This document shows positions 875 through 60,936 of a stretch of DNA of 64,000 nt, in pieces. The position numbers and the translations under genes are program-made. The notes beneath the pieces were generated by a model. That model made no database searches. It saw only the letters and a program-made list of their open reading frames with translations, and was not told the origin of the DNA. The stretch's first letter is position 1, and every line of letters begins with the position of its first letter. This stretch comes from Antedon mediterranea. Taxonomy: Eukaryota > Echinodermata > Crinoidea > Comatulida > Antedonidae. Where the stretch lies: assembly GCF_964355755.1 (NCBI RefSeq), contig NC_092678.1:7660922-7724921 (forward strand), written 5' to 3'.

Positions 875-3800
875 CTTCATATCCATATGGTGTATCTACT
901 AAAATGAAGTCAATGCTGTAAACATTGCCTAAATCAACATACCAATAAGGGTTCTGGTTTTCTGAAACTTATAGTAAAAGAATATAAATTAACTGAAATG
1001 TTATATTTTTAAATAATAATAATTGTTTAAATACTTTACAGGATGAAGATGATGATGATTAATGATGCATGTAAGCTTTGATGTATTGCTAACTGACACA
1101 GACCAGGTCACAATATTATTTTATATTTGAGTGGCCATATGATGACGTCACAACATCCGAGAGGTAAATATTCTGTATGAATTCATATCTACAACATATG
1201 CTTATTATATTAAGTTAAAAATTGGAGGTCACTGTTAATTATTAAAAATAGGTAAATTTTGGCACAAATTTGCATTAAATTACCTATTCTTACGATTAAT
1301 AAAGTTCAATGTGCACATGCATCGTTATTGTGCCATTAAAGTTCATCAAAATAAATTTAATCTACTACAGAAGGTATGAAAACAAAAATCAATTGCAAAA
1401 ACCATTTGTCTAAACCTTGTATGAGATGTGCATACAAGTGTATGCACAAAACGCAAAAAATGTATATATAACATTTTGAAATGCTCAAAAAATGTTGGCT
1501 GCACATCTACAATTCAAAGTTATACAAAGTTATGTTCACAATTATTAGAGATAGGCTGTCTACAAAAATCATAGAAAGAAAGAAGAATAACAAAGAAGAA
1601 GATGAAAAAAAAAAGATGATGATCTCATACAATCACAAGGAGATTTACCTAATAAATATGCATCATAATACCAGAGTGTTTTTACATACTGTACTTACAT
1701 CATACTAGTACTTACCAACTGTACGGGAACATGAACCAAAGTTGAAATTATTTCGCGAGTTAAGATCAACAGCTAAACTGGCATCATATGAAATACCACC
1801 AGAAGAATAAGTTGTACTCTGGTAAGCAGGCTTGCCACGACTAATATAAGATGCTGCAGAAACTACAAAAAAAGAACAGTATATCAAACTGAAGCTATAT
1901 ATTATACATTCATTGATTTTGATGTACTGTATGGTTTCTTCATTCTTTTTTCCAATTTAAATTTCATCCTGTCTTTTTTCAATCCTCACCCTTTCCTAGA
2001 TTTCGCTCCAATTCAATAGACCTGCTTAAGTATAGGATGACAAGATAAGAAAATTCATAAAGCGCACATATCCCACAAAGTGCTAATACAGTCTTTGAAT
2101 CCAATCAAATGATTATTATGATGATGATCATTAAAAAGAAAAAGAAAATCATTATATCGTCATATTGCTCTTATTAAATCATGACGACATTTGATTGGAC
2201 GTGTGAAAATATTAAAAATAACAAAGACAAATAATCATTCTATAGGTCTAGAACAAAATGTTTTATGTAAAAAAAATGTACGTTCATTACAATTTGTTTT
2301 ATGTACCCACAAAATGTAAGCAATTTCCGCGGAACAGCGCGCAATCACAGAAAAACAGCTATTTTAGGAAGGTTTTTTCAATGTAAACTCTGTTGTTATT
2401 ACACTGATTTTTATGGCTGTTTCGGCATTATTATCACTAATTAATTACCTCCAGTGTCATTGTCATTGTCCAATATTTTTATTTCTTAATTTAAGAAACA
2501 CCGTTTGCATTGATTTTTAAAGTAAGATGATCTCAAAATCATCGTATGTTAAAGTATAGTCATATTCGTAAAATTTTTTTTTATCCTGATACAAAAACTT
2601 TTGACATAGTTCTCCAATTTTTATGACTGTTTCACGATGCTAAAACAGACCAATCAAATAATATTAATTAATTTGATTACTTGATATTGCTCATTAGCAC
2701 ACCCATTTTTTTAAAGTTCAGTGACCTGTTAAGAGCGATTGACTACAAATATCGACGTATCATTAAAAAGTGGCAAAATGCCAAACTTAATACTTTGGTA
2801 ATTAATCACACTTTAGGAAAATAATATAACAAAACTGAAATATTTTTGAAAAAAAAATTATTTGTTGCCATGTTAACAGGTAAATTGTTTTTGTGAAATC
2901 TTTTTGTACCAGTCTTGCTCTAATGTAAAAAAAAAATTTACGTAAATCAATTATTGAATTTAGGAGATACCATTATTTTTCTTATGAGTGTTTTCAGGAA
3001 TTTCATTCAAGGGAATTTGTGTATGTTTTTCAAAGAGCTATAACTCCAATGGTAACTCTTCAAAAGCAACCATGGTTGATAAAATGGTTGAAATTTGCAT
3101 TTACTCATGTTATTTGTAATATAGAAATAGGTGGGTATAGCTTTTTCAGTCCAAAATGTTTTTTTATTGTTGTTAAAACATACTAAAATATAGGCCTGTA
3201 TAGATATTAGTATCTAAAAGCTACCCTGGGTTGTTTATTAGTACTTACTTTATTTTCCATAAATTAAAAATTGCTGCCATTTGAAAATTTTTTCCCTAAT
3301 TTTTTCTTTAATAACAAGTTTTTGTAAAGAATGTTTTAAACACATACAAACATTATTCTTAAGATTCAGAATAACTAATTTAATTTTGCCTTTGGAGTCT
3401 AGGTCAAAGGTCAATTTATTACACTATATACAATTATTGTATATCTTAAAGACCCCTTCCCTGCAATTTTGGACGTTTTTTGGAAAATAATACATATATA
3501 TCACTTTAAAAACATTAAACCATGTCATTCCTTGTCTTAAATGTACGTTTTATGGTAAATTATGATAAAAAGTGAGAAACAATGCACTACCTAAGTAGCT
3601 TGCGCCGATCGACCTCTCGTGGACGGTCTCAGGCCTAGCCTAGCTAGGCTTAGTTTTGTAGGCCTAGCTGGTAAACATCGGTAAGGTACGAACATTGTAC
3701 GCTAGCTATATACCTAGCCTGACGTTGTATAGTTGCTGCATTAATTATCTTTCTATTTTTGCCAGACTCCGTTGACACAAATTGGGGAAAACCCGGTATT

Positions 3801-6800
3801 TTCGCTGAAAAGTTAGGAGTCTTCCATTTGTTTTGGCTTCACGATCGATCGAAAAGTGGGCGAATTACAGGTGAAAAACAACAATATCAATCCGCGCGCA
3901 ATGCATTTTGGGATTTATAGCGGGCCGCTATAATTATTAAAATCGATTTATTTTTCACATTTTTAACCGTTTAAAGACGAAAAAAGTTATCGCAATAGGA
4001 CCATATAGTATTATTTTTACATTAAATATAGTTTGTGATCTTAAATTAGATCTAAAAAACGTAGGGAATGGGGCTTTAAACTTGAGTATTTTGAATAAGA
4101 ATTTATTAGGTAGAAATATAAATGTGGCCTTAAAGCTTTAAAATAACAGTTAATCTGTGCTTTCTTTTGGAGATACAAATTGTTTAAGGTCAAAGGCTTA
4201 AATGACCCCCACACTTTTTTTTAATTATTGAATAAGCCATTTTAATGTTAAAATAGTTATTTACTTTGACAACAAAAATTGATGGAACGAAAAATTATTT
4301 TTTAACCTAATAAAATCATAATTTAAAAAAGAGTTTAAACTCAAGCCCATTGTCGGTTTGTATTTCATTTACTGTTTTTTATTTTTTATAAGCTAAATCA
4401 TTATTTTTTAAATAACCTGATTAAAACTACAAAATGACTTTGCAATGTTTGATTTTAGTATTCTTTTATTCTATTTTTTACATAAAAAAGAAAGGAACTG
4501 TAAGTTATAAACGTAATAATATCCTTTATAGTATCCGATTAGAAAGGATTCAAATTTAGATTTTCACTCCAATGAAGTACATGGTGACGGAGTTGTTCCA
4601 TCCAACCCAATATATTTATAGAAAAGACAACTTCAAAGAAGGGACACAGACCAATGCTATCAAGCTGTTTGATAGCCTTGCACACTAGACTAATGAAAGT
4701 GGTCTATTCTGTTGGCCAGGGAAAAATTAACAGAAATCAGGAGACACCTCAACATCTTGTGAGTAAGTTCTTAACATGGCCACAAGTTGAAGTAGTTACG
4801 GGTTACAAGCAACAAAATAGAGTACATGGGATATGAGAGGTCTACACTACCTAAATTTTTTGTTATCTTTATGTATGCCTACCTATATACAGTGAACACA
4901 AAAATCGATTTTCGATCGAAAAATTCTCATCCCTAAGGTGGGATTTTTAACGCATTTCTAATTATACCAATCAGTTCCACAGTTTTGGACAATTTTACAA
5001 TAGACGTTGTGAAGCTCCAAATTTTGGCCAAAATTAGATTTTTTAACCACAAGTAAAAACACCCCCATTGAAAATAGTACGGTCTATTCCCATGTCTGAC
5101 CAAACATTTTTTGCTTTCAGTTTGTTTATAAGTCTTTCATCATCTTGTACTAAATTTCGTTTTGAAATAATAGGAAAAATTACAAGAAAATGCTATAATT
5201 TTTTAAATTGCCGTTTCTATGGCAACAAGATACAAATATCAAAAATATTTTTATCTTTGCATGTTTCAACCAAACCTCTTTCATTGTGCAAATTTTAAAG
5301 AAAATCTATTTTTTTGACTTGGCCACCTAAGGTCGAAATTTATAGACAACTGCTCTTAAGTGTTAAAAGATAATAGAAGACATTTTCAAAAGTTTAACAT
5401 AGTGAAATTGCATTTTTAATTTTAAAATATAATTTGATTTAATGTACGAGTAGCTTCAAAAAACCCCATTTTGTTTGTGGCATTTTGACGGATGTGTTTA
5501 TTAAACTAACTAGCATGATTTGCTGTTGGTGTGGAATGGAACAAAATAAAAGAACAGTCCCCACACACCGTTGAATTTAGTTAGTACAATTGTTCCATTG
5601 CCAACTGAAACTATTATACAATTAATGTTATTAAATTTAAGTACCAGTCATTGCTTATATGATTCTGTAAAACTTACATCTCAGCATGGTTAATTACTGT
5701 CACCACGATCTTTGGAGATGATCAAGATAAGAACACAACTAATATTAAACCGGTCAAAAAAAGCAAACAAATTGTAATGTATTTATCCAGATTGTTCAAT
5801 TGAAAGAATATATATAATAACTATAAAATTGGTATGAAATTACAGTAAATAACCATATAATGTAATTCAGTTTGACTCTAATTTAATAAATTTATATTCA
5901 TATACCTTGATACTCGCATCTGTCTCCTGTATATCCATTTCTGCATGAACAGCTAATAGTACTTTCATCAGAACCAAGACGACACCGTCCATTTAGACAA
6001 GGATTGGGTGAACATGGATCTAGTTTAGTTTATTTAAATTAACATGAAAAAAAAAAACAATGAAGACAGAATATGAAAAATTAATGCAAATAATTAAAGT
6101 TATATTACTTTAAAAACATTAAACCTACTTGTCTTACGTTTTGTGGTTATGTTAAATAGAGAAAAATAATTCAGTACTTTAATGTTGAATTTCCTCTTGT
6201 GGACGGTCATAGTCATAGCCTACGTGGCCTTAAGTTTGTAGGGCTAGTTGGTAAACAGCGGTATTATACGAACATAATACTTTAAGCTATAGGCCTAGCC
6301 TGGCGTTGTCTAGTAGCTGCATTAATTGTCTTTCTTCATGATCGATCGAAAATGGGTAGATCACAAAAGCTAAACGAAAATACCAATCTGTCCAATGCAT
6401 GCTGGTATTTTTAGCGGGCCGCTTAAATGATTAGAATTAAACCCTTTTACAGTTTAAAGATGAAAACATTATCGCAACAGGCCCATATAGTATTTATTTT
6501 TACATAAAATGCAGTTTGTGACCTTAAATTCAATCGAAAAACAGAAAATACATTCAATACAAAACTAGTACATAGTAAATACAACTAGTACATCTTACGA
6601 AATAACAATTCCATAACTTTAAAAAACCAAAATATCTGCCAATCTGTCAATTATTTTTGTTTTTGTAAATAAAAGAGATTATTACAGTATATGTGATTGT
6701 CAAGTTTGTACTTAAAAAGTGTACAGTAGTCACTATTCAGTTCAACAAGTATCAAAAGTTACTATTACTATTAGTATTAGTAAAGTCAATATAGTGAAGA

Positions 6801-9800
6801 TTACACGATGGTTGATTTCCTTATCACTAGGCAAATCTCATTTACTTAATTGCTTAAGTATGAATGCTTCACCAAAATATGATGCCAGTTATGGAATTTC
6901 CAAATTCATGAAACACCAACAAAGACAAAATATGTATTGTTCATTTCAGCTGCCAGAATTGTAATTATTGTTGAATATGTATGACACGCCATGTGTGTTA
7001 AAATGTTAATATTTTACTAAACTGAATCAGCAGCCTTCAATTCCAGAAACAGCAGCGATATTTATGGTGTGCACATTGCCATCACTACAGTGAATATTAA
7101 TGATATTTTCAGCAAACTTTGCATTCTCCGTTTATAATGTAAGAATATGTTTATTAAACCTAATACATTTTTGTTCTCAATTTATTTTACAGGTGCCAAG
7201 AAGTATGTGTGCTTTTTGAAATTTGAATTTTGTTTTATTTTGCAAATTGTATTATTTAAATGACGGAAATTGGTTTAGATGTTTTATAAATTATTTACCA
7301 GTATTAATACTTTTTTTATTTTATTCCAGCGTTACGGACGTACAGTTTGAAGACTTTTGTGAACTGTATTTTGAAGAGTAATATATAAAATATGATGAAA
7401 TCTTCACAGAATGTTTGTCTTATCCTATTAAGTAAATCCTTAAAATTTCATTCAGGAAGAACAAACCCTTGTTGAGAAAATTGCTAAAACCCGTGCGTCA
7501 TGATAAGAAATTTATTTTTTCTAATCAGTTAGTTTTAACTGTACATTCTATCAAATATTTTTATGCCAAACTAAAGATGTCTTTATTTTCATCTTAAAAA
7601 CATATAACATTTTAAAATTCTGATAGTGTTTGACTATGTAAATGCATTTTCAAGGCAGGATTTGTATTCAACTACTGTTATGGACGTACAGAATTTCTGT
7701 TATTGACGTACTGTACACTATCAACCACAATTCATTTGTACAGTATACGGACAACGATGCTTGAGATGTGTGCAAGTTTGACATACAAACTTTATTTAAA
7801 TGGTTAAAAACATGAGTACTGTTGTGGTTTAAAGATTTTCATTTTATTATACTTCCAATATTCAATAAACAGTTACATTTCAATTTTGCTATTAAACACT
7901 AGCTTTACACACATTATTTATAACAAAAACAACAAAATTCATAAAAGTTCAACTAATATTAATACTCTTTAAAATGTCACCATTTATGATTTTTCAATTT
8001 ATATTTTTGTTGTATTGGGTGACCTTTCGTTATAATTGCCCCAATAACAACTTAGGACATTCTTTCTGTGCCGCACCTATCAATCTAATATTTTTTCTGT
8101 TTTATACCATACAATTCATACGTACGTACCCTCACTGTCAGACAGATACCGGTACCTTTTATTACATTTGTGGATAAAAAATGAAACAAATACAATAGAA
8201 AAAAGGGAAATATTGTGTTGAGTCTCGTTTGGGGTATGTATAATAATAATTTTCAGGAATAAGAAATATAGAATATAGTTGAAAAATCAAAACATTAAAA
8301 CTAGTGTCTCTTATAAATACTTTAATTGGCTACTTGTTGTGAATGATTATGGTAAGACACTAGCCTATACATTCCAACTGTTAGACGCTTTCGCCGGCAG
8401 GATTGCCCTCTTTTCGGCACATTAAAAACAATCTCATTTGCCGACTGATATGTAGGTCTATACTACGCAGTTTTACTTATGTATAGCTTGTATAAATGGG
8501 TCAAAGGTTATAAATTATCGCATTTATCCGATAATTATCTGATTTGAAAGAGATAATTATCAGTTAATTTTTCTTGAGTGGAATCAGTTAAACCCCGTTT
8601 CCACAGGCTGTTTATCGGTTATTTTTTATAGGTTAATTTTTGGCTGCGGAAATACAGCCTGCGTCAACGATAATTGTTAATTATTGTGTTAATTATTAAT
8701 AATCAAATTACCGTTTTTAGACATTTCTCTCATTTCAATCTGTTTTAATTGCACAAATAATTCGAAACTTAGAAGAATCTGCCAAAATAGTTTCACTCCA
8801 CAGACAGAAAAAAAAAAACCCTCCGCATGATTGATTGAAACCCTCAACAAACAAACAATGCATTGTACATCATCGCATGTTTATTGAAATTTAATATGAA
8901 GTGCTAAAAGAATACCACATTGTAACAAAAAAGATACGCCTACTTGTTTAGGGCATAACTGTTTAGCGTCAGATTATTAGCCCTCTTTTGTTTTGTAAAT
9001 AAATATTTTATGAGCTGTTAAATTCATGAAACTCCAAAAAGGACAAAATATGGCATGATCAGTTCATTTGCCCAGTATGGCATGCTAAATTGAAATAGCC
9101 AAAAAGAAATAACTGTACAGTATTATAGTATTAGTAAAAACTAGAAAGCCACTCCGAGTGCGCATACCTTCGTCTGCTGTAAAATTCTTCTACATAGATT
9201 TCTCTGCAAAAATATACTGTATACCTGTATACTGGTATATTTGTGTGTGTCTTAATGCTGTGTGTGATTTTACTTGTTACTTTAAAATTCTGTCCTACTG
9301 TATTTTTTAACACTAGCATGTCTGAAAATAATACTAAAAAGTGGTCCAGAATTGGGACTGTGGTCCGAATTGCCTTTAAAATTGAATGGATCGAGTGGTC
9401 TTGATCACATATCTATATGTATTTTCATTTTGGTAAAGATCTTATAATTACTTTTTTAGTAATCCTGCTAAAACAGAAAGACAAACACATGCAATCGACT
9501 ACATTATACCTCCATGGCAGAGGTAAAAAATAACATTACTAAGTCTATGGAACGCCACAGAGGCCACATAGGCCACATAGAAGAACTATGACATGATGTA
9601 TTCTGTTCGCGAGATGACATTCGACACGAGTTACTTGGGTACAGTTAGTGCATTGCTTTTCTCATTTATCGTAATTAACCATAAAACATGCTTTTAAAAG
9701 AAGGAATGACCTGGTTTAATGTTTTTAAAGTAATATATAGGGCCTGCATTATGTTTACAAAATATCAACAACTGTAAGGAAAGTGTCTTCAAATTTACCC

Positions 9801-12800
9801 ATTGGCGAATGCACAATAGTTTGACGGCACGGTTTGACAGACGTCGTAAAACAAAGTTTGTTGAACAACTTCACATAAATAAAGGTCTATGTATGTTCAA
9901 GTTATAGAGTTCGGCGGTGTGACGTCACAACAATATGCATGTTGCTAGCCAACCAAAAAATGTGTTCAACGAAGTGATGTAAAGCCAAAGTCTGGATGTC
10001 AATCTACAATGTTATTGTTCAAAAAGTGATTCTCCATGGAGAGGAAACCAACAAGATGACGGCTGCAATCGATCAATCAGATAAGCCCTACGCAGTACGC
10101 ACTGCTATACGCCTGTGTTGAGCATATCTGTGTGAGAACGATAGGCAACGCAGCGTATTAAGCGTATAAAGATAAGTAGGGTACAGTACATTACTACGGA
10201 AATATTTAAATGTAATAATTATGGACAAATCAACAACCCATGTGACGGGGTTTTCTACAACAAAGTGTGTAGTGGCCTTTAAAACTTTTCAGTCTGGAGT
10301 ACGCCCTCTAGCCTCCGACTTCTCACTGCCTTTGGAGCAGTGAGGTAAATCCGAAGGATAGAGGGCGTACTCTAGACTGAAAAGTGATTCCAACAGGAGG
10401 GGGAACCAACAAGATGGCGGCAGTAAATGTGTTCAAAAACATTATTTAATATAAAAAATAATAATCTATAATACATTAAGACCACATAAATTACAACACA
10501 TAATCTTGTCAAAGCAAAGTTTTTATAAAATTAAATATAATTATTGTTAATAGCAATAGAATGAATAATTTCTTGGTAATCTAGCATTTTTTGTATACGA
10601 GGATCATATAGAATGCGTTCGCGTTTATACGCTTAACACGCTGCGTTGCGTATTGTTATCACGCAGATAGGCTCAACACAGGCGTAGTAGTGCATACTGC
10701 GTAGGGAATATCTGATTGGTCGATTGCAGCAGCCATCTTGTTGGTTCCCTCTCCATGGAGAATCACTTTTTGAACTGCTATAACATTGTTCTTTGTGATC
10801 TAGCCTTCGGAGAGAGATGTAATAAGAACACTAGAGGGCATACTCCAGACTAAAAAGTGATTCCAACAGGAGGGGAACCAACAAGATGGCGACCGTAAAT
10901 GTGTTCAAAAACATTATTTAATATAAAAAATAATAATCCACAATAGACCACATAAATTACAACACATATTCTTGTCAAAGCACAGTAAAGTTTTTATAAA
11001 ATCAAATATAACTAGAATTTAATTCGTCACTTTGACGAATTATAGATGATCATTTTACTGAAATAATTTTTTTTTTACTTGCACGTACGTTAACATACGA
11101 TCGGAAAATGTTGATGTATGCCATCCTATTATACGCTTATAGTGCTGAGTTGTGCCTTATTATTATTATATGCCATATATAATATGTACAGTATTATATA
11201 ATGTATATCTATATACGGGACACACATGTTCTAATTTTTTGGTATGATGGAATTAGGGAGTTTTCGCCATCTTATGAATACGATAACGAAAACGGACACG
11301 TCACGCACACGTATTCGTTTTTCGTAAGCCAGTAAAAATCTGTTTCGCATGGCAACAAAATATTGAGGGCGCCGTCCAAAATATGACTGCGGTAAATTTG
11401 AGCAAAGCGCAGGTTTATGTTGCTTGGCTGCCTAGGCCTAGCGTAACAACTAACATCAAAGCGAGAAAGGACTTTAAAAACTGCTATGTATCAAAATTGA
11501 CCTGACATTTTAGTAAATTACTTTAGTAAATTACTTTCAATAAATCTATAATTATATAATCATGAATCATTCCTTATTCAAATGCAAAATAGAAGATCAA
11601 AAACTATAGTGATTGTAGTTACGAATATGACTGGTGATATTCGTCAACACGAATACGCTTTACGAATATGAAATGGGGATCAGCTTAAAAGTTTTATAAA
11701 TGTGTGATGTATCTGTTTTCATTATCGTATTCGTAAGGTTGCGAAACCTCCCTAATTAATTTGCGCATTTTGTCATTTTGAACCTGCTCGTATAGCGTTA
11801 TTTTATATCGGAACTGACTCAAATTTGGTGAATGTACTAAGGATGGTGAGTAGAATGCGATTTGTAAAAAAAAATTCGTATTTTTTTACGCTATTTAAGT
11901 AACGTGCGCACAAAAAATTTTGTTTGCGCAGTAATTTTTTGAAACACACAAATGGCCTAATTCATGCTCTAAATTGATCAAAACTTAATTTTCAGGTTTT
12001 TAAATTTTTAAAGCGTTATTTTTACCTTGACCTGAAGTTTACGTGATAATGAATTATGGAGATATGATTGATAATGTGATTTCACAAAATGGCGTATAAA
12101 CATGGAGTATGGTATAAATGACATCATGAATGAGTGATCACGCTGAAAAGCTTATTAGAATTAAGTTATATTATTTGAAAGATATTGTGAAATTTTGGTA
12201 ATCATTGACATTAAACTTTTTGAGATAATTGTTACACAAAATAGTGCCCAGAAACAATAACAATAAAGATTTGATACAATAACAATAGGTGATCATTTTA
12301 TTCTAAATGATCACCTAATTATTGTTAACCGCAATAAAATAAATAATTTCTTGGTAATCTAGCATTTTGTGTATACGAGGATCATATAGAATGCGTTCTC
12401 ATGCATAGGCTCAACACAGGCGTAGTAGTGCGTACTGTGTAGGGAATATCTGATTGGTCAATTGTAGCCACAATCTTGTTGGTTCCCTCTCAATGGATAA
12501 TCACTTTTGAACTGCGATGACATTAAAAGATTGCATCCAGGCTTCGGTTATTACAAATCACTGGGTTGAACACATTTTTTGGTTGGCTAGCAACCACGCA
12601 GCGCCACCTACCGCCATGACTTCAGCACCGTATATTAGAGAGAAACACCATCCTGACAACCCAACCAACCACAAATACCAAAACAAAATAAACATGTATT
12701 GTAACACGAGAAATCGTATACAGTATTACACGTTGAAACACTAGGCCTACTCAATAGCCAGGGTTATTTGCTTAGCCAAACGAATTGAGAATTAGGGGTC

Positions 12801-12891
12801 TTGACTCACCTGTCGTTTGAGATGAGCATAATCTGAAACATTGTAGAAGTAACAGAATCAACGTTATCACCACACACTTTTGATCAAACAT
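875..12891 (-). CDS. Gene D: 5' part of a paralogous EGF-FTP membrane protein (3' end beyond window)
   Basis: Four exons are visible: signal 12810-12891 (MFDQK start, LILLLLQCF core), EGF 5906-6019, FTP exon 1 at 1716-1862 and FTP exon 2 at 875-967. They total 436 nt and stay in phase 1. The EGF keeps six cysteines (DPC, NPC, GRC, ISC, SC, GDRC). FTP pieces read GKPAYQSTTYSSGG and NPYWYVDLG. No CUB was seen in the 6.8-kb first intron. FTP exon 3, HYR, membrane and tail exons must lie left of the window if present. The first-strand motif AVDLNSRNNFNFGS differs from A and B, where it reads AVDGNRDRDFNSGS or AVNGDIDRDFNSGQ. Confidence 0.76.
1440..1680. repeat. Dispersed repeat copy 2
   Basis: Related to 1-300 and 34640-35010 through the ACATCTACA, ATTAGAGATA and AAGAAAGAAGAATAA segments in the same order. 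It lies in the gene D intron between FTP exons 1 and 2. Any short ORF here is incidental. Confidence 0.45.
3505..4060. repeat. Dispersed repeat pair, copy 1
   Basis: Shares an ordered series of blocks with 6108-6535: TTTAAAAACATTAAACC, a GACGGTC...TAGCCTA stretch, GTAGGCCTAGCTGGTAAAC, GCATTAATTATCTTTC, a TAGCGGGCCGCT block and CAATAGGACCATATAGTAT. Two diverged copies in the same gene D intron region indicate a transposon family or local duplication. The rest of 2000-5900 is non-coding intron with nothing recognised. Confidence 0.55.
6108..6535. repeat. Dispersed repeat pair, copy 2
   Basis: Second copy of the 3505-4060 repeat, in the same orientation, starting next to the EGF exon of gene D. 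It has the TAGCGGGCCGCT block and the ACCTTAAATT-type end. The flanking 6540-9130 shows no exon or named repeat. Confidence 0.55.
9131..9529 (-). mobile_element. Short non-autonomous element, partial copy
   Basis: Reverse-complement relative of 17319-17985. It begins ACTAGAAAGCCACTCCGAGT and ends near TACCTCCATGGCAGAGGTAA, with the shared AAAAAGTGGTCCAGAATTGG core. It lacks a coding region. Family name unknown. Confidence 0.5.
11012..12315 (+). mobile_element. 1.3-kb element with terminal palindromes, short copy
   Basis: Begins CTAGAATTTAATTCGTCACT, forming an AATTCGTC/GACGAATT hairpin, and ends in the palindrome GGTGATCATTT-TATTCT-AAATGATCACC. Comparison with the uninterrupted unit copy at about 10537-10560 shows it split the sequence ATATAATTATTG and duplicated TAA. 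The same ends occur at 56642-59714. It has no ORF and so is non-autonomous. Confidence 0.65.
11255..11753. mobile_element. Inverted-repeat element nested in the 1.3-kb element
   Basis: Terminal inverted repeats of about 60 bp start AGGGAGTTTTCGCC on the left and AGGGAGGTTTCGCA on the right, reading inward, continuing through TACGAATACGATAA. AATT flanks both sides as the likely target duplication (11251-11254, 11754-11757). No ORF. Confidence 0.6.
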
Positions 12892-19293: not shown

Positions 19294-29391
<10,098 letters not shown>

Positions 29392-33542: not shown

Positions 33543-33578
<36 letters not shown>

Positions 33579-42500: not shown

Positions 42501-45500
42501 GACGTAAGAAGTTATTTATTAGTTCTAGTTTATTTACTACGATAGAGCCTACTTTAAATGCTGTTTTAATTTCAGGTAGTCATGTTGTACTTGTGTTGAA
42601 AAGTTGTAATGAATAAAACGGAATAATAACTTGTGGTTACCGTTCATAACCAAACTGTTGTATTTGTGTTTGCTTCAGAAATTATCTTTTAAAATTGCAT
42701 GTTGTAACAAGTCAAAACAAAACCAAAATTAATTCGCCATAAAAGGACATAGGTACAAGTTCGCGGAACTAGTTTGGCAAATGGTAAAGTAGTCAAGGGT
42801 CATCTACCCATAACAAATTACTTATTCGCCGTATGCAAAAACTATTTTGAAAAAATTAAGTTGGTAAAGTGTAAAACGTTCGTAAAAGCTAGTTACTTAT
42901 TCGCCGTAGAGGGCGTAGATGCAAAGAAAATCGCGGAACTGGGGTGACAAATGGTAGTGTAGGTCAAGGGTGATCGATTCATACCAAAATATTTTGGAAA
43001 AATTAAGTAGGTCAAGTGTTATAACGTTCGTAAAAGCCAGTTACTTATTCGCCGTAGAGGGCGTAGACGCAAAAAAGTTCGTGGAACTGGGGTGGCAAAT
43101 GGTAGAGTAGGTCAAGAGTGATCGATTCATACCAAAATATTTTGAAAAAATTAAGTAGATCAAGTGTTATAACGTTCGTAAAGCCAATTACTTATTCGCC
43201 GTAGAGGGCGTAGACGCAAAAAGGTTCGCGGAACTGGGATGGCAAATTGTAAAGTAGGTCAAGGGTGATCGATTCATACCAAAATATTTTGAAAAAATTA
43301 AGTAGGTCAAGTGTTATAACGTTCGAAAAGCCAGTTACTTATTCGCCGTGGAGGGCGTAGATGCAAAAAAGTTCGCGGAACTGGGGTGGCAAATAGTAAA
43401 GTAGGTCAAGGGTGATCGATCCATACCAAAACATTTTGAAAAAATTAAGTAGGTCAAGTGTTATAACGTTCGTAAAAGCCAGTTACTTATTCGCCGTAGA
43501 GGGCGTAGATGCAAAAAAGTTCGCGGAACTGGGGTGGCAAATGATAGAGTAGGTGAAGGGTGATCGATTCATACCAAAATATTTTGAAAAAAATTAAGTA
43601 GGTCAAGTGTTATAACGTTCGTAAAAGCCAGTTACTTATTCGCCGTAGAGGGCGAAGATGCAAAAAAGTTCCCGAAACTGGGGTGGCAAATGGTAAAGTA
43701 GGTCAAGGGTGATCGATCCATACCAAAATATTTTGAAAAAATTAAGTAGGTCAAGTGTTATAACGTTCGTAAAGCCAGTTACTTATTCGCCGTAGAGGGC
43801 GTAGACGCAAAAAAGTTCGCGGAACTGAAGTGGCAAATGGTAGAGTAGGTCAAGGGTGACCGATTCATACCAAAATATTTTGAAAAAATTAAGCAGGTCA
43901 AGTGTTATAACGTTCGTAAAGCCAGTTACTTATTCGCCGTAGAGGGCGTAGATGCAAAAAAGTTTGTGGAACTGGGGTGGAAAATGGTAAAGTAGGTCAA
44001 GGGTGATCGATCCATACCAAAACATTTTGAAACAATTAAGTAGGTCAAGTGTTATAACATTCGTAAAAGCCAGTTACTTATTCGCCGTAGAGGGCGTAGA
44101 TGCAAAAAAGTTCGCGGAACTGGGGTGGCAAATGATAGAGTAGGTCAAGGGTGATCAATCCATACCAAAATATTTTGAAAAAATTAAGTAGGTCAAGTGT
44201 TATAACGTTCGTAAAAGCCAGTTACTTATTCGCCGTAGAGGGCGTAAATGCATAAAATGTTATTAAACTTTGACCGGAAGAAGTAGAGGAGGTCAAGGCT
44301 AACATGTTGGTGCAATAACAACTCAATTAGACAGTTATTACGTATTAAAATCTGTTTTTAAAAAAATATTTGTGACTGTCCCTTTAATTGAATTTGAATA
44401 AGGAACTAGGAACTAGTAACCAACTTCACAGACATGGATATTTTCTGAATTTGTGTTGGGATAGGTTTAGATTAGGTTTCAGGTTTAGTCCAGGAGAGAT
44501 GAGAATGTAACGTATAGAAAATACATAATTTGATTGAAAATTTTCATCTGGTTTGTAGTAATAAGTTATTAGAAATGTTATTTTTTCCAAACCAAAAATT
44601 AGTATATAAACTAACCTTGACAATGTATGACCCTGTCATAATACAGAATTGGCCCTCTAGAGGTCAATCTGTTTAGTGATAGATCGTCATTACTTCTGAA
44701 GAAGCTGTCCGATCAGGACAGCGAAACTGTCAAGGTTAGTTTATATATTTATATACTAATTTTTGGTTTGGAAAAAAAAAATTTCTAATAGAAAATACCT
44801 AGCAATCTAAATCATTCTGCAGCATATAAATATATAGTCTGTCAAAAATGAAGTTATATATTATGGCTTGCATTTCAAACTTTCACTTCAAATTGTTTAG
44901 AAGGTGTGTCCTAGAATTGTGAATAATGTACCATACCTTCGTATCCATATGGTGTATAAACTTGAATATCGCTAATGCTGTACACCATACCTAAGTCAAC
45001 ATACCAGTAAGGGTTCTGGTTTCCTGAAACTTAAGAATATTAAAGATGTATTGTCCTCCAAAAGCAGGAAAAATTATGATTAAAATCAGACTTAAGCGAT
45101 TTTGCAGTTTTAATAAAGTTAATCACTTCCCTAGAAAAAAAGTTTCACTTATAAAAGACTTTTTTTTTTCAATTCAACCAAAAACCCATCAGGCTGGCAG
45201 TCAATCTATCTATCTAAGTTTTTTTCAGGTAAATAACTTTTGTTTTATCCAAATTTTTGTCAAAGTGAATAACTATAATGTGACTTTAAAATGGCAAACC
45301 AAGGGACAATATATCTTAAAAGTATTACATTTTTTTTCAATTCCAGTTTTTGGAAGAAAAAAAACACCCATATTTCTGCCTATTTCCTTTAATATCAATA
45401 GGTAAAAAAATAATCTTATGTTAAACTTTAAAGTTGAAGCTTCATAGATTTAGTAAAACAATATTTGATTTGATTTATTCAACTTTTGCACAACAAAAAT

Positions 45501-47509: not shown

Positions 47510-47558
47510 GATGCGCCGTTTTCTTTCTTTCAATAACTTTAAAATAAATTTGTGATCA

Positions 47559-50010: not shown

Positions 50011-50014
50011 TTAA

Positions 50015-51512: not shown

Positions 51513-54500
51513 TCAACCAAGTTTCTTACCGGTATCCGGTGCCTGTGGTACTGCAGCATAGATAATGCCAGTGGGTGTAATGTAGCTTTGAAATCCACGT
51601 GGTATGGTAACTATGTCATAAGTAGTGGAATTAAGTTTCTTTCGGTTCTCCCAATAAAAAAACCTATAATAAAATACAGTGTCTTTTATTATATAAAAAA
51701 AATAATAAAAGATTGAGAAAGGAAAAACATATTTTTAACAAAAATTTATTTCAGGCAAAATATCTGGCCATAATTAATATTTTTTTTTAGCTTTATCTAG
51801 TCCAGCGTTCCGCAAACTGAACTAAAATTATCGTTCCGGGACTGACCTGCGGCCCAACTACCCAGTTGTACCGACTAAATGAAGGTAATGAAAGACCGTT
51901 ACACCTCAGCTCCAACCGTGGTGGGGCTGAGGCAAGAAAATTTAAGGAATATGATGGACCCCACGTCCCGGGAAATGACATTGTCAGTTTGTCTTTGAAG
52001 GGTAAAAATTGTGTCGATGATCCGGAAAAAATCAGCTCAGCCTCGGGGTTTTCCTTTTTTAACGCACACATGCCAGTCTTTTACATTACATTGCAATGAT
52101 CAAAACTTTAGCCACACATATGGAGCGGAGGTATAAAACACAGGACATTTTTTGGAGGGTAACAAACCGTACATCAAACATTTTCAGCAACATCAAGATG
52201 TTAGAATGAAGGCGCTTACGATGGTTAATTATCAGGATTTTTTTCACAATTTCTTATAAAGCCACCCCCCAGCCCTTCAAAAATGTTTCGTCGATCTAGT
52301 CCACTACCAATTATGCAGTTAAGTATACACATACAAACCCAAGCAAGAAAAACAACCACAGCCTGAACTGATAATGCACTAAAGTGTTTTCATTAGTTGT
52401 TCATTCTAGCTCTCTGTTTTCTCTACATAGTGGTTGTTGCTGCTCACTATCCATGTTTACAAATGTTAGTTACAGTTAAGATGAAGAAGTGCCACACCTA
52501 AAAGAAATATGCTATAGCAACCAGCAATATAGTTGTGATATTAAAGATGTATTGTTCCCCTGAAAAAATAGTTCTTAACAAAATTATTTTTTGAATATGC
52601 CATTTTAATGTAACATAATAGTTATTCACTTTGACCAAAATTGGATCGAAAAAAATGTATTTACCTGAAAAAACTGTAATTTAAAGCAAAAAATGGCCAA
52701 ATGGGCTGCCAGCCAGTGGGTTTTTGGTTGAATTTAAAAAAAACTAAAAAAAAAAAAAAAAAACTACAAAATAATATATTCAAAGTCTAATTTAATTAAT
52801 CTTCATTATTCATGATTTTGGGGGACAATACATCTTTAAAATTAGAAGTAAAGTATTTGTAATAATTGGTATTTTGGCTGGTATATTAGAGAATTACCAT
52901 CACCTCTATCCTATTAGCTTGTATGTGTGCAACACATCCACCACCTGCATATTTATTATTTATGTCATCAAATTTAATTCCTACAACCTGTCTGTGCACA
53001 AAGAAAATGTATGAACAGGCCCGTAGCCAGGGGGGGTTTTTATGGTTCGGGCGAACCCCCCTTTACAGCGAACCCCCCTTAACCAACTGCGAACCCCCAT
53101 CCCCGACATGCCCAATACCTCACCCTCATCTCCAAAAATCCTCCAAATACGTGCCCCACAGTACAAAAAGTTGTTTGTAAATTGAAAAATTCGTAAACTT
53201 GTTCGTGAACCTTCTTCTCTGTATGAGCGTCAACTAGTGATACGTGTCTGTAAATTTCTAAAAGCTGCAAATGAATTGCCGATTTTAACCTGAAAAATAA
53301 ATGTTTGGTCCCTGCATGTAACATGATATTGACGCGTCTCATAGCGAGCTGGCGCACGAACGATTCGTACAAAGGACACCGCCAGACAACTGCGTACCTA
53401 TTGTTTAGATCACTGGCAGTCAGGCAGCATGCATAAAGTATATAGCCTTCCGACGTACATCAGTATTTATGTGTGAATTTGAAGTATAATGTATCATAGA
53501 GGATTATAGTGAATATTAATATTTTACACTATAATATCTATGGTATCAAGTACTGTAGTTCACATTATGGCATCCGATTATTTTTTTCTAGACCACCAGC
53601 CGATACGTAGGCCTACTAAAATGTATCAATATCAGTGGCGTATCCAGGATTTTGAAGTTGGGGGGGGGGGGGGGCGGGAATTGCCAATTTGCCGACAAAA
53701 TTGGTGTCATTATCTGTACATACTTTTTCTCTGATCAATATATGTTCTAGGATTACATAGTCATATTGTCTTATATGGGATAACGATGCAAAATTAAAAC
53801 CAAACCAACATTATCTGTTAGTATGTTGTATTCATATTACAATAAAGAAAGAATTAGAAAAATCGTTTTTAGCCACGTACGAAAGAAGTACGGTAAAACA
53901 ATTTGCGGCCTCAGTCGACAATTCTATTAACTACGCCATTTTTTGTTAAAATAATTACATATAATTACGTTTTTTAGTAATTTATTTTATATATCACCAT
54001 TGGAAATATCAATAAAACATGTTATTAAATGCTTATAAAATATATAAAGTCGTTTACTTAACGGAATTCGGACAAATTCATTGCTCTAACTTTGTGTAGT
54101 AACGATCAGAGAGATTCATGGTACACGCGCGAGAGAAAACATTCCGCTGCGGATGATTCGCATCCACCAATCAAATCAGCTAGAATCCTAAATCATTCAA
54201 CCGTGAGCAATGCCAATCGCGAGAAAGCTCAGCTTTGATTGGCTTACGATGACATCATATCACAAAATGGTGGTTTTGTAGTTGAGCCTCACGGAATATT
54301 CTGTTCCAAAAATGAAATACATGGATATTTTTATGGTATATGTGCTTTTTCTTTAAAGATTTTGAATAATAAAGGCCTCATATCGAGAAAAAAAATCGGG
54401 TTTTTGGCACTTATAATAAATATATCTTAGACAAAAAAGCACATGGCATGTGGAACTATATAATCTCTTAGCGTAGGAAGACATACAAATCTCAGGTCAT

Positions 54501-57500
54501 GAGAGGCTCAACTGCATGCAAAAACAAGGTTTTAGGGTAAGGTCAAAGACTTTTGAGTAAACAATCTACCGCGTACGGCCGTATGTACGTGCTACACATT
54601 TTTAACGTGTTTCGTTTGATGTAATGAAAATAAAAAATAGTTGATCTGAATGGATCAATGATGATACGATATGTAGGCTAAAACAAACACTCAAAAGAAT
54701 TATGTTTACAGTTCAATTATTGTCAGAATAAATAGTTTATTTTTTTCCCCGGCACCTTTGTTTGCCGACGGCCGCGATGATGTGCCGACGGAAACGAAAT
54801 CAGGGCCCCCCCCCCCTACTGGATACGCCACTGATCAATATCACCTATTTACATATTTATATTCCTCAACAAATTGCTGTAAATAAATATTATAGATAGA
54901 GCTAGCAAATAGTATTTGCCTTCACCCAGTGTGCTTTTTTCGGGGCTGCTCCTAGATATACGTTCGCATTGAACTTGAACGCAAAACCAAATACGGAGTA
55001 AATGATCAAACAATCGGCGGTTCCGCACAGAGCACCATCTAACATACGGCAACAAATAGTTATCGTCATTTAAATTATCGACGTGTTTGAGGAGGAGGAA
55101 AAAGTACGATCTTTTTGCTCATTGGTTATATAGAATGCTGCACGAGAGTGTCTTTTCCGGCCATCTAGGGGTGTCATTTAACAAAATTCGCATCGCATCA
55201 GGCTGGGGGGGGGGGGGGGTTTGACCCAAATATTTAGTGTCCGAACCCCCCCTTGACAGATCCTGGCTACGGCCCTGATGAATTAACTTCTGTTTTACAT
55301 ATTGTAGCTAAAGTTAGTTAAGGCAATTGGATGCTTTTTGGCAAAATTTATTGACAAAACAACACCTGAACAATGCTGTAGACATCACCAAAATGATGAA
55401 AGCACAAATTATTATAAGCACTATCAGATAAACAGGTACAGATGAATTACCTTAAAAAATAAATAGAAAAAAAAATGATAAACTATGTTTTGGAAGTTAA
55501 TTATGCCGCTTTGCAATAAACCTCAATCAAAAATTGCTATAAATACAAAATATTAATCAAGTTATACACACATATTTAATGGGGGGAAAATGACTATTCA
55601 ATTAAAAAACACACACATCATGAGAAACTCCCATTACTTTTACATGAAACATCAGCAAAAATTGATTATTCTCAAGGATCAATATCATTTAGTTTTCTTT
55701 CGCCTTCCCAGAGTTTCTATATGTAATTACACCACTTTCCTTTTTAAAATTACAAAAGGAACCTAAATACATACGGTAGCTTGAAATGGTTGGGAATAGG
55801 CAGTAAATCTAGGGTAGCAAGACGATTTGGCCCTGGACGATTTGCCCTATTTATTATTGTTGACTTTGCAATGATGTATTTTATAAACTTAATAACAATT
55901 TTTTTTGTTTTTGCATTTTCAGAGAGACTATGGGGTAGTAGTAGTGCTAGGGATTAACAATGCAATAAACCAAACATTTCTGACTTGTTTTGAAAATATA
56001 GGGCTTAAAGAATTGCCAAATTATTTTTCGCAACATATACGATGTATACAAATAATACCCTCTGTTGGCGAATGCATGAATACGAAAGTTTTTAAATAAT
56101 AATTACATTATTATTATTAAATGTTATATCTGTTGTATATACATTGTATATTATTTGGGCCAAGAGCCTTGTGTAATGAGGGAAGAAAGCTGTTCTCTGT
56201 AGTTTTAATGTTGCATTGATTCGACTATGTCGCACATGAATGATTGGAATTTTATTGTTTCTTTGGTTTTTAGGTAGTTTTTTCTTTTTTATATTTCATC
56301 AAACATACTTATGACTTACCATTAGCAACCCACACTGTAAATACACATGTTCCTGTATTATTAGCAGAATCTGTAGCAGTACAGATAGCATCTGTAGAAC
56401 CAGCAGAAAAATATGAACCAGAAGGTGGAGTACAAGTAGCTGACAGACCAGTATCACCATTATCGGTGACAAAGGGGTCAAGCCAACTCACACTGACCTG
56501 ATCTGTGTCAGAATTTTCTTCAACTTTTTCTGGGCAAATCACATTGGGTTTACCAACATCTAAAGAAAAAGTTGAACAAACAAAAACTAATTAATCAGCT
56601 AAGTAAGCCTATAGCAAAATATTAACAAATTTAAAATACAACTAGAATTTAATTCGTCACTTTGACGAATTATAGGTGATCATTTTTATAATTTTATTGA
56701 CATTAAAATTTTTTAAACATGCACGTATGTTAACATACGATCGGAAAATGTTGATGTATGCCATCCCATTATACGCTTATAGTGCTGAGAATTGTGCCTA
56801 TTTATATGCCATACATTATGTACAGTATAAACTACTACTACACTACTTGTACCCCCACGTCGGACATCACACCAAGAATTTACTGCACACCAAAAATCCA
56901 TAAAATGAATAATCCGTTACGTCCCATAGTCGATTATACGGGATCCATTATGTACAATTTGTCACGAAGCTTAGCCGACATTCTCGTACCACTAGTTGGA
57001 AACAGCATCCATCATGTTACTAATTCGCTTGAATTTGTCAATGACATAAAGGACATTAAGTTACAGCCAAATGAAACATTGGTCTCTTATGATGTTGTGT
57101 CATTATTTACCAAGACACCAGTCAACAAGTCTCTCAAAATAATTGAAGAACGCTTACACTGTGAAAAACAACTATCAGAGAGAACGTGGTTACATATCAA
57201 CGACATTATGGAATTGCTTCAATTGGTTCTCACCACCACATATTTCAGCTTCAGAGGAGATATCTACCAGCAAAATTCAGGTATGGCCATGGGTAGTCCA
57301 TGTTCTCCGATTGTTGCGAATTTATTTATGGAATGGCTGGAAAATGAGACAATAACTACAGCTCACACCGACATAAAACCGAGGATATGGAAAAGGTATG
57401 TAGATGACATTATAACAATAATTCCCAAGGATGCGACATAACCATCATTACAACACTTAAACAAAATCGATGATGACATTAATTTCACTTGCGAAGAAAT

Positions 57501-60500
57501 GTCCTTAACAGACAACTCTATCCCATTCTTGGATACGCTAATTTTAGTTGATGGGGAAGGCAACATCAACACTAAAGTTTTTAGGAAAGCCACCCACACA
57601 AATCAATACTTGGACTTTAACTCACATCATCCTCTACAACACAAGTTATCCGTTATCCGCACACTTCTACACAGATGTAACACGATAATCACAAATAATG
57701 CAGACAAACAGAACGAAACTAAGATGATACATACTTCACTTAAACAATGTGACTACCCAACATGGACGATTAGAAAGGTACAACGTAACTTAGATAAACC
57801 AAAAACGGACACACAACCCGAAACAGAAGACATAAGAGGGTCGATATCCATCTCATATATTCAAGACCTGTCAGAGAAAATCAAGAGAACATTTAAAAAA
57901 TATAACATACGAACATACTTTAAACCATCTAACAAAATTAAAAACTTAATCGTCCGACCGAAAGATAAATGCATGCAAAGGAGATTCCTGTGGTGTTGTC
58001 TACAAATTGGGTTGCACCAACTGTGAGATGGTGTACATTGGGGAAATGGGTAGGGCACTCAAAACCAGAATTAAAGAACACAAGAAAGATGTTGAGGAAA
58101 ACACACAGAACATACAGACGCGTGCATCACGGAAAGTTTCGTCCTCCATTTTACATAAATCAGCAATCACGGACCATATGACCACACACAACCACATACC
58201 TAACTGGGATAAGATAGAGGTACTACACAAAGAACAAGTTTGGCTTAAACATAAAATGAAAGAAAGCATCAGTATAAGAAAGCAAAATAAAAATACAAAG
58301 ATGAATAGAGACGAAGGCACGCACCAACTATCTCATATTTACGATCAGCTTCTGACGACGACTGGTCCCCTAGGCTACACAACAAAAACATCTAGTGGCT
58401 GGAAAGGAGACCAGTCGGCGTCATAACGCATCATAGCAACTGAAGAAGTCAAGCTGACAGCTAGACGAAACTGTCTTGCCAACGTAAGTTTTATTGGTTT
58501 ACTATCAAAGAACTACTTATATCATTATACGAATCGAAACCAGAAGAAATGTTTTCATTACAGTATAAACTGTATATCTACAGTGTAGCATTGGTGAAAT
58601 TACGGACACACATCATGTTCTAATTTTTTGGTATGATGCCGTTGTCAAAATAAACCTGAAGATCACAATTTCGAAAGATAATGAATTGAGCAAAAAATTA
58701 TAAGATTTGGAAGAAAATTTGGCAGGTAGAAGCGCACTGCACGCTCTTTGAAATTTTTATAAATTTGACGAAAGAGAGAAAAAAACTACTTTTTAACTTC
58801 AACTGGCCATTTCATAACGTCAAAACATCTGATAGGCCTAATTTTTATATGAATTCATATCTACATTTCATCAGCTTTCATAATAAATTATAATCATCAA
58901 GGTCACATTTAATTCTGAAGAGCTGTAAGGTATTCAAATGTATGGTGTAGGTGAAATTACACAACCTACGTTATTCAAGTTTTTACGCGTGATAACGTCA
59001 TAAAAATGAAAATGTTGACAACTCATGAGAAAGATGATTAATTGAGCAATCATATACTAAAATTTTAGCGAAAATCGGGCACAAAATAACCGAGATGCGC
59101 TCTGTTGAATGTGATAATCTATGACGAAAGAGAAAAAAACCTAATTTTTAAATTCGCGTGGCCCTTTGGTGACGTCACAACATTTTGTACGTCAAATGTG
59201 TACATGAATTCATATCAAAAACTCAATGGATACCAGAATAAGTTAAAAAAATTGGGGGTCATCGTGCATTTTGAAGAATTATTTTAATTTTAAAAATGCC
59301 TTATTTTTCACCATTTTCATCACTTTGATGCAATTAATGTGCGCATTTTGTCATTTTTAACCTGCTCGTATAGCGTTATTTTAAGTCGGAACGGACTCAA
59401 ATTTGGGGAATGTACTAAGGATGGTGAGTAGAATGCGTGTACAGTAGTAAATTTCATTAATATGTGATAATGAATTAAGGAGATATGATTGATAATGTGA
59501 TTTCACAAAATGGCGTATAAATGACGTCACGGATGAGTGATCACGCTGAAAAGCTTATTAGGACTAAGTTAAAGTATTTGAAAGACAATTTTGGTAATCA
59601 ATAACATTAAACTTTTTGAGATATTTGTTACACAAAATCTGTACAGAGAGAAATAAAGAAGAATAAAGATTTCATACAATAACAATAGGTGATCATTTTA
59701 TTCTAAATGATCACTCAGTGAGTGAGTGGCCGAGCGGTTAAGACAGTGGAACCGTAATCACGTAGCCATAACATCGGCAGGGGTTCGAGGCTCACTCACT
59801 CCATGGTTCTGGTGGTAGAACGAGTCTTCTCGGATAAGGACTATAAACCGTAGGTCCAGTGTACACAACTTGCTCGTGTGCACTTTAAAGAACCTAGTAC
59901 ATCTTTCGAGACGAGTAGGGGGTTACCCCGGTGTACTAGTACATCACAGCCACTTATCACCAACTGGGCCCTCTGGGAGATCAGTCTTTGACTGAAGAGG
60001 TCACCCAGTATAAAGATAAAACAAACAAACAAACCTAATTAATTGTCCATATAGAATTGCAATTATTTACAGTATTGTATTCATATCAAATCAACCTATT
60101 TATGACACTATCATAATGATGTTCCAGTGTCTGTGTGAGGGTGTAAATTGTACTCCTCCGCATAGAATAAATAGGACGGGACAATTTACATGTTAGTCCA
60201 GTTTTATGACACTGGTTAATAAAAAAATAAATAAATAGTGTTACATAAATATTTATTATCACGGTCTAATATGGCATTTTTAATGTATGGGTAGATAATG
60301 TGTTAAGCGGAATAATCCGCACCCATTACGCGTATTCGTCGGAGAATGGTAAGCTTGGGATGATACCTGATACATCCTCTCTCCTTCGGACGCTTGCATC
60401 GACTAGACGTGTATTTGCCTAGCCTGTTAAACAATTTAATTATTTCTTTTTGTTGAGAGCACATCGTTTGATCTTGATGTAATCTGTAAGTTTTAAATAT

Positions 60501-60936
60501 TGTTTAATTTATAATATGTTTAGGTTAAATACAGTTTAACTTATTTAAATTATAATATAACAACAATTTAATTTAATGTTTGTCTAGCCTAGAAGATATC
60601 AATGGAAAAATCTCCTAGGCTGGGTTGAAGCATCAAACCCTGTAACTTTTATTATAAAAGTTGAAATGTGTGCATGGAAGTGTTACATACCTATTTTAAT
60701 ATCAACTGTAAATTCACAGCTTCCTGTGTAACCAGCAGTATCCGTAGCAGAGCAGTTAACATTAGTTGAACCAACATAAAATACTGAAGGAGAAGGTGGA
60801 TTACAAGTAGCTGACAGACCAGTATCAACATTGTCAGTGACTGAGGGGTCATCCCACTTCACTGCAAATATGCCACTTTCACTGTCAACAAAGTGTTCAA
60901 TATTTTCTGGACAGATCACAATTGGGGGATTAATAT
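51513..60936 (-). CDS. Gene C: 3' part of a paralogous HYR membrane protein (5' end beyond window)
   Basis: Four exons are visible: HYR 60691-60936 (82 aa), HYR 56320-56559 (80 aa), transmembrane 55366-55450 (SVPVYLIVLIIICAFIILVM) and tail 51513-51663 ending in TGA. Splice phases agree with genes A and B, and the combined frame is open. The tail is only about 50 aa: it keeps TYDIVTIP and GFQSYITPTG but diverges after that and ends DTGKKLG. AATAAA at 51502-51507 immediately follows the stop. Signal, EGF and FTP exons were not found up to 64000 and should lie to the right. Introns are swollen by nested transposons (a 2.3-kb nest between tail and transmembrane exons, a Penelope nest between the HYR exons). 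It could be a decaying copy, but no stop or frameshift is seen. Confidence 0.72.
51790..52085. other. GC-richer island with open frames, unidentified
   Basis: A block of higher GC than its surroundings, open on both strands (for example + 51866-52099). One edge, CAGCGTTCCGCAAACT, resembles hAT terminal repeats of the CAGNGGTTCNCAAACT type, so a transposon fragment is the simplest reading. It is within the gene C tail intron. No domain recognised. Confidence 0.3.
52545..52835. mobile_element. TTAA-type MITE, copy 3 (perfect target duplication)
   Basis: A 291-bp element with ends AGATGTATTGTTCCCC and GGGGGACAATACATCT, flanked on both sides by TTAA (52541-52544 and 52836-52839). TTAA duplication is the piggyBac signature; assignment to that superfamily is an inference from the target only. 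Confidence 0.7.
53016..55277. mobile_element. Outer TIR element in gene C intron
   Basis: Ends CAGGCCCGTAGCCAGGGGGG and, read inward from the right, CAGGGCCGTAGCCAGGATCT. ATGAA is repeated on both sides (53011-53015 and 55278-55282). Poly-G/C tracts follow the ends. It carries the hAT-like element at 53633-54833. No transposase ORF. Confidence 0.65.
53633..54833. mobile_element. hAT-like non-autonomous element nested in the outer element
   Basis: Ends CAGTGGCGTATCCAGGA and CAGTGGCGTATCCAGTA (right end read inward), with a perfect 8-bp duplication ATCAATAT at 53625-53632 and 54834-54841. An 8-bp duplication with CAGNG ends is diagnostic of the hAT superfamily. The 1.2-kb interior has no transposase. 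Confidence 0.78.
56834..58558 (+). mobile_element. 5'-truncated Penelope-like element (RT plus GIY-YIG)
   Basis: The insert is bounded by a perfect 13-bp direct repeat, TACAGTATAAACT (56821-56833 and 58559-58571), absent as a pair in the related short copy. Content in order: reverse transcriptase from the TPKIHK motif on, a GIY-YIG endonuclease, then a 3' end with a hammerhead-like CTGAAGAAG...CGAAACTGTC. The first part of the RT domain is missing, as expected of 5' truncation. Confidence 0.78.
56864..58426 (+). pseudogene. Penelope-like reverse transcriptase/GIY-YIG pseudogene
   Basis: RT motifs are visible: YCTPKIHK, SYDVVSLFTKTP, GMAMGSPCSPIVANL and the catalytic YVDDI. A TAA at 57439-57441 interrupts the same frame after DAT. 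The frame then resumes to SIPFLDTLI and HYNIRTYFKPS-type sequence. Near 57970 the frame shifts by one base before the GIY-YIG part (CGVVYKLGC, EMVYIGEMGRALKTRIKEH). Penelope-like elements are retroelements whose RT is related to telomerase. This copy is inactive. Confidence 0.82.
59716..60034 (+). mobile_element. tRNA-derived SINE with ACAA tail
   Basis: The head GTGAGTGGCCGAGCGGTTAA resembles a Leu/Ser-type tRNA. A B box GGGGTTCGAGGCTC follows and the 7-bp acceptor pair GTGAGTG/CACTCAC is kept. A ~220-bp body (CGGATAAGGACTATAAACCG, GGTGTACTAGTACATC) ends in AAACAAACAAACAAAC. It abuts the palindromic end of the element at 56642-59714. Body fragments occur at 28333-28390 and 61149-61206. Confidence 0.72.

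Follow-up and report, generated by a model that had tools for sequence, protein, structure and literature searches.

A tandem array of lectin-related, HYR-bearing candidate surface receptor genes in the crinoid Antedon mediterranea

The window considered here is a 64,000-nucleotide stretch of the genome of the crinoid Antedon mediterranea (contig NC_092678.1, C9 below; G000:C9:7660922-7724921, in an assembly of 354.4 Mb and 18 contigs). It holds two whole genes, A and B, and parts of two others, C and D, the four being minus-strand paralogues in a tandem array. The first-pass annotation, made from the letters of the window and a list of open reading frames (ORFs), had already described four such paralogues between 875 and 60936, and end-to-end models built with flanking DNA bear this out. 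The limits it gave coincide with exon borders, 875 being the last base before the donor of FTP exon 2 in D and 60936 the first base of HYR1 in C, but genes C and D both extend outside the window. Window coordinate 1 corresponds to C9:7660922, negative coordinates lie in the left flank and those above 64000 in the right flank. Exon profiles were built from exons in the ORF list, with the HYR profile seeded with the six HYR exons of gene B, splice borders were read directly, and flanking DNA was added for genes C and D. Pfam scans of the A, B, C and D proteins were read for families listed at E <= 0.001 and against the model cut-offs. The genes and their exons in the window are as follows.

32244..47509, minus: gene A, complete model, 939 amino acids, 15 exons (signal, EGF, three FTP exons, eight HYR, transmembrane (TM), tail)
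47425..47509, minus: A signal exon (MFDG...)
46811..46927, minus: A EGF exon
46340..46486, minus: A FTP exon 1
44937..45029, minus: A FTP exon 2
39945..40142, minus: A FTP exon 3
39212..39448, minus: A HYR1
37758..37991, minus: A HYR2
37131..37367, minus: A HYR3
36402..36638, minus: A HYR4
35629..35868, minus: A HYR5
35178..35417, minus: A HYR6
34061..34294, minus: A HYR7
33624..33863, minus: A HYR8
33184..33268, minus: A membrane exon, 85 nucleotides, weak donor GTTTGG
32244..32439, minus: A tail exon with stop, YEDI motif
19294..29391, minus: gene B, complete model, 894 amino acids, 15 exons (signal, two CUB exons, degenerate EGF, three FTP exons, six HYR, TM, tail)
29304..29391, minus: B signal exon (MFDK...)
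28515..28734, minus: B CUB exon 1
27997..28130, minus: B CUB exon 2
27482..27586, minus: B EGF exon, degenerate
26858..27004, minus: B FTP exon 1
26171..26266, minus: B FTP exon 2
25098..25295, minus: B FTP exon 3
24690..24926, minus: B HYR1
23660..23890, minus: B HYR2
22824..23057, minus: B HYR3
21848..22084, minus: B HYR4
21317..21556, minus: B HYR5
20620..20853, minus: B HYR6
20312..20396, minus: B membrane exon, 85 nucleotides, weak donor GTGTTA
19294..19492, minus: B tail exon with stop, YDDI motif
12891 to -31807 (1..12891 in the window), minus: gene D, 868 amino acids, 14 exons (signal, EGF, FTP, seven HYR, TM, tail)
12810..12891, minus: D signal exon (MFDQ...)
5906..6019, minus: D EGF exon
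1716..1862, minus: D FTP exon 1
875..967, minus: D FTP exon 2
96801 to 51513 (51513..64000 in the window), minus: gene C, 458 amino acids, 10 exons (signal, five EGF, two HYR, TM, tail)
60691..60936, minus: C HYR1
56320..56559, minus: C HYR2
55366..55450, minus: C membrane exon, 85 nucleotides, weak donor GTGTTG
51513..51663, minus: C tail exon with stop, YDIV and YAAV motifs

Common to all four predicted models, which read without internal stop, are an N-terminal signal segment, EGF, HYR repeats, a membrane helix and a short tail. The left flank of D, down to -31807, supplies FTP exon 3, seven HYR exons, a membrane exon of 82 nucleotides and a tail that matches those of A to C in type. In the right flank of C lie its five EGF exons, and its signal exon (MFEK) begins at 96801. 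Every predicted internal join has AG/GT borders and matching phases, giving 14 consecutive joins in A, 14 in B, 13 in D and 9 in C, and such a run without an internal stop is more than chance would give. Exons of phase 1-1 number 12 (A), 10 (B), 11 (D) and 7 (C), the exceptions being the CUB pair of B and the signal, TM and tail exons. Because the ectodomain exons are thus mostly symmetric, the gain, loss or skipping of a module need not shift the reading frame, and the members do differ by module, with CUB in B only, two to eight HYR, one to five EGF, and no FTP exon found in C by the exon-profile searches. A hydrophobic segment lies near the C-terminus of each model (19-residue Kyte-Doolittle hydropathy 2.56-3.23), with a few further peaks within A, B and D (for example at B residue 633), and the N-terminal segments look like signal peptides, those of A and D more so than those of B and C.

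In the Pfam scans, HYR is above cut-off in all four proteins, CUB in B, and EGF in A, C and D; the HYR stretches that pass singly number eight in A, six in B, six in D (whose model has seven HYR exons) and two in C. The MFD signal exons of A, B and D, the single-exon HYR domains (16 within the window: eight in A, six in B and two in C), the 85-nucleotide membrane exons of A, B and C and the related tails of these three genes were all as the first-pass annotation had them. Its attribution of EGF and a three-exon FTP domain to all four paralogues stands in part: EGF holds for A, C and D but is degenerate and below cut-off in B, and the three-exon FTP holds for A, B and D, the profiles having found no FTP exon in C. 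The CUB module that it named is present in B, and none was found in A, C or D by profiles or Pfam.

The predicted head encoded by the FTP exons is an F-type lectin relative, homologous over about 140 amino acids. In the D head, the one compared with solved structures, residues 10-146 match FBP32 (3cqo, E 8.8e-22) and the eel lectin AAA (1k12, E 4.8e-7), aligning over nearly the whole length. Ten FTP copies were aligned, those of A, B, D and E from C9 and of F, G and L019-L022 from a second contig, C6; L018 on C6, whose fetched stretch yielded only the FTP3 exon, was left out, and the open frame of G covers its third exon incompletely. The fucose motif of F-type lectins, given in the cited passage of PMC5712786 as HX24RXDX4(R/K), is found in none of the ten copies, even when loose spacing is tried, and the Arg of [SQ]C[SA]RT stands at the position of the lectins' His. 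The cation motif from the same passage, h2DGx, fits six of the ten (B, G, L019, L020, L021 and L022) and not A, D, E or F.

Loss of the fucose motif is not unprecedented, because that passage notes other F-type domains that lack the triad. It also describes F-type domains joined to other domains and to membrane segments, and gives Drosophila furrowed / CG9095 as combining an F-type lectin domain and a transmembrane domain, the latter by prediction; CG9095 is likewise without the canonical basic residues (PMC5712786). In contrast to the EGF and HYR found here, furrowed / CG9095 carry C-type lectin and CCP modules, neither of which Pfam listed for any of the four proteins at E <= 0.001.

By exon matches, the window array belongs to a larger family in two clusters, on C9 and C6. 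Of 20 candidates scored for the FTP3 exon, 12 matched at E <= 0.01 (four on C9, seven on C6 at 252-473 kb and a weak one on C1), and of 25 candidates for the FTP1 exon, 20 matched at E <= 0.1, 11 of them at E <= 5e-7. These strong FTP1 places are four on C9 (A, B and D in the window, E outside it) and seven on C6, the remaining matches being eight weaker places together with one additional copy in E that is broken. The signal, EGF, FTP, HYR, TM and tail exons of gene G on C6, as located rather than spliced, stand in the same order. No FTP exon was found in gene F2 (C6, 430-436 kb), as in C, and a search for a tail in gene F (C6) found none. HYR is very common in this genome, with 1417 first-look candidates, of which 150 were scored and all of these lay above cut-off. 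The presence of HYR is therefore not enough to place a gene in the family. The complete models and the FTP exon clusters on C9 and C6 support the earlier suggestion of a type I surface protein family growing by tandem duplication. Between E and D, at -41699 to -41616 (C9:7619222-7619305), lies an orphan signal exon (MFGG...) whose donor reads GTAAGT; it may be what is left of a lost gene, or may serve E as an alternative first exon.

Similarity between the paralogues on C9 is confined to exons. In BLAST comparisons of A-B, B-D and A-D, the 22 longest of 42, 40 and 51 matches reach no further than a few tens of bases beyond the exons. Paired exons, twelve per gene pair, are 71-94% identical, whilst 64 of the 69 adjoining intron flanks are at background; the five that exceed the 5% level of mismatched flanks compare with 3.5 expected, and only the A-B flank upstream of HYR4 tops all mismatched scores. 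HYR1 of A and B is the sharpest case, being 94% identical with 4 synonymous changes in 59 sites and with flanks at background. As a control, the EGF duplicates within gene C (synonymous proportion, pS, 0-0.15) have upstream introns that are 92-99% identical in 10 of 10 pairs, but their downstream flanks top every mismatched score in only four of the 10, so that the control is valid on one side only; the duplicated block perhaps ends there. These five EGF exons lie at 64604-86651, with EGF2 and EGF5 the same in protein and the upstream introns alignable, and by sequence they arose by intragenic duplication. On C6, genes L020, L021 and L022 have some introns above background and others not, and in the other pairs, with F, G or L019, no flank rises above the top score that mismatched flanks gave on C9. 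Synonymous change is also uneven among the exons of one gene pair (chi-square P 0.00012, 2.6e-7 and 0.00013; 0.015, 0.00063 and 0.0017 with the signal exon removed). Gene conversion limited to single exons explains this pattern best and is its likely cause, with synonymous-site constraint or fast intron turnover as alternatives that may still account for it.

The cytoplasmic tails of six members (A, B, C, D, F2 and G) were compared with shuffled tails, leaving out the first ten residues. YxxPhi motifs occur 12 times as against 4.42 in the shuffles (P 0.0002), motifs like the immunoreceptor tyrosine-based inhibitory motif (ITIM) five times as against 0.72 (P 0.0002) and plain YxxL/I seven times as against 2.50 (P 0.006), P values that are optimistic because the six tails are related and had been read before the motifs were chosen. 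The ITIM-like motifs, in this post hoc test, lie in the tails of C, D, F2 and G. The tail of F2 (C6:430147-430404) carries YYDI, YQDL, YSSM and YTDL, and YQDL lies nine residues from YTDL, inside the spacing of the immunoreceptor tyrosine-based activation motif. YxxPhi is also the AP2 endocytic signal. A single tail type for the family was not recovered by plain sequence search, which matched A and B only; a profile gave the C tail 15.5 bits, the D tail was recognised by pattern and by eye, and those of F2 and G by profile. As predicted, the tails fit signalling or endocytic receptors.

These features suggest that the array probably belongs to a set of type I membrane proteins that are surface recognition receptors, presumably expressed, with a re-tooled lectin head on a HYR stalk. 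The head would be derived from an F-type lectin whose classical fucose site has been lost, or would consist of EGF repeats in C, and would be carried on HYR modules above one membrane helix. This head may bind a ligand other than fucose, borne by a microbe or by some other cell, in an immune or self-recognition role, and the short tail with its tyrosine motifs would recruit SH2 or adaptor proteins, or drive endocytosis. The family would have grown through tandem duplication in the two clusters, and the paralogues seem to swap sequence exon by exon.

Several observations weigh against this interpretation, besides the optimistic tail statistics and the one-sided intron control. The donors of the TM exons are weak in all four genes (GTTTGG, GTGTTA, GTGTTG and GTTTTT), although the exon border falls at the same alignment position in each, and N-terminal 19-residue hydropathy is low in B (1.41) and C (1.57) relative to A (2.52) and D (2.12). 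The Pfam family F5_F8_type_C_2 is above its cut-off (27.8) only in B (35.6 bits), with A (26.9) and D (20.9) falling short. The A tail and the B tail carry a single YxxPhi apiece, and neither has an ITIM-like motif. The ratio of nonsynonymous to synonymous change (dN/dS), calculated pairwise by the NG86 method with the B CUB, A HYR6-7 and D HYR6 exons left out, is 0.71 (A-B), 0.63 (A-D) and 0.73 (B-D) over the paired exons and 0.93, 0.82 and 1.23 for FTP. Positive selection on FTP, suspected from the range 0.82-1.23, is unsupported, and diversifying selection is not demonstrated, because in FTP the nonsynonymous proportion (pN) is statistically indistinguishable from pS (Fisher p 0.47-0.89), as is FTP from HYR (p 0.14-0.32).

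Other such observations point to damage in parts of the family, and with them to the thought that these are decaying duplicates, largely non-functional. The EGF of B lacks its sixth cysteine in the model (Pfam 20.7, cut-off 21.5), and the FTP3 open frame of G (C6:425119-425280) starts about 18 residues later than those of its relatives, an exon that by this measure is shortened or damaged. Gene E has, beside intact copies, a further EGF and a further FTP1, the latter with a broken frame, at -65184 to -65044 (C9:7595737-7595877), which on their sequence are an internal duplication that has decayed. The orphan signal exon and transposon-like ORFs within introns would also fit decay. Set against it are four full open models, splice positions common to all four and similarity kept in exons while introns diverged, and wholesale decay seems highly improbable.

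A recognition role could alternatively concern gametes, the proteins being egg- or sperm-surface molecules like EBR1/EBR1_5 or oyster bindin that change fast under sexual conflict. This is unlikely, but is kept alive because of two sea urchin proteins: EBR1_5, in the cited passage of PMC5521101, is transmembrane with SEA and seven HYR, and Ebr1, in that of PMC8403831, has CUB, TSP and HYR repeats. Oyster sperm bindins likewise are F-type lectins diversified by selection and recombination, with some isoforms lacking the fucose triad (PMC5712786). The EBR1_5 passage mentions no F-type lectin head; the Ebr1 passage gives no predicted transmembrane domain, whereas the genes here have a membrane segment and FTP head; and oyster bindin is acrosomal with one to five F-type domains, HYR and a membrane segment going unmentioned in that passage. 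Pfam lists no TSP, metalloprotease or SEA domain at E <= 0.001 in any of the four proteins, pN is not in excess of pS in FTP, and adhesion would not need tails with tyrosine motifs. The tails and the copy number tip the preference towards immunity or self-recognition rather than gametes. The Alr allorecognition receptors of Hydractinia have Ig-like ectodomains and allele-matched binding; no Ig-like family came up at E <= 0.001 when A-D were scanned with Pfam, and no direct comparison with Hydractinia Alr was made.

Less probable still is that these are ordinary adhesion proteins or extracellular-matrix anchors, in which the HYR stalks are structural and the tails serve trafficking only. The abundance of HYR in the genome and the double use of YxxPhi as an endocytic signal are in keeping with such a role. 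However, a lectin-like head without its motif in 10 of 10 copies, unequal gain and loss of domains, dN/dS of 0.63-0.73 and exon-confined similarity would together be unusual for structural proteins.

Open frames that resemble mobile elements and other genes lie within and beside the array; the names given to them here are provisional.

56755-58426 (window), plus: in a gene C intron, open frames presumably of a Penelope-type reverse transcriptase with a GIY-YIG-like part
62415-62837 (window), minus: in a gene C intron, an integrase-like open frame, presumably of a long terminal repeat retrotransposon
C9:7740256-7744992, minus: in a gene C intron, a long open frame, presumably BEL/Pao-like
C9:7759969-7760880 and C9:7764824-7765807, plus: just beyond gene C, two long open frames that we take to resemble rhodopsin-class G-protein-coupled receptors

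Repeat arrays with several open frames, as read from the ORF list, lie at C9:7605577-7608647 and, between A and C, at 49138-50997 of the window, where the frames are on the minus strand.

Elsewhere in the genome, two of three tektin queries come closest to chains of 8snb, a structure from sea urchin sperm: L033 scores 238.5 bits with 8snb_8J, the next chain reaching 146.7, and L030 scores 170.9 bits against 135.2. The third, L031, points the other way, its best match being vertebrate Tektin-3 (207.7 bits, with 121.1 for the highest-scoring 8snb chain). These results are in keeping with an echinoderm or another ambulacrarian. No match was obtained with a COX1 family model, with a bacterial-type cellulose synthase model used as a tunicate marker or with an ascidian spliced-leader pattern, all weak negatives because a long model may fail to hit and the pattern allowed no mismatch.

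Among the matches listed from the open-licence literature, no paper with this domain order was found, which is weak evidence of novelty. Outside the Toll, NLR and SRCR families, the recognition systems of invertebrates have been little explored. Tentatively, and with clearly less conviction than we give to a receptor family as such, the genes may represent a hitherto unreported family of recognition receptors, in an echinoderm or a close relative, in which a fucose-lectin fold has been turned to another ligand and set on HYR stalks with tyrosine-signalling tails, and whose exons act as exchangeable cassettes, through gene conversion of single exons that both keeps the members similar and reshuffles them, to build a repertoire for self/non-self or pathogen recognition. 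If this is true, the array would allow a test of the ways in which animals that lack adaptive immunity diversify their recognition repertoires.

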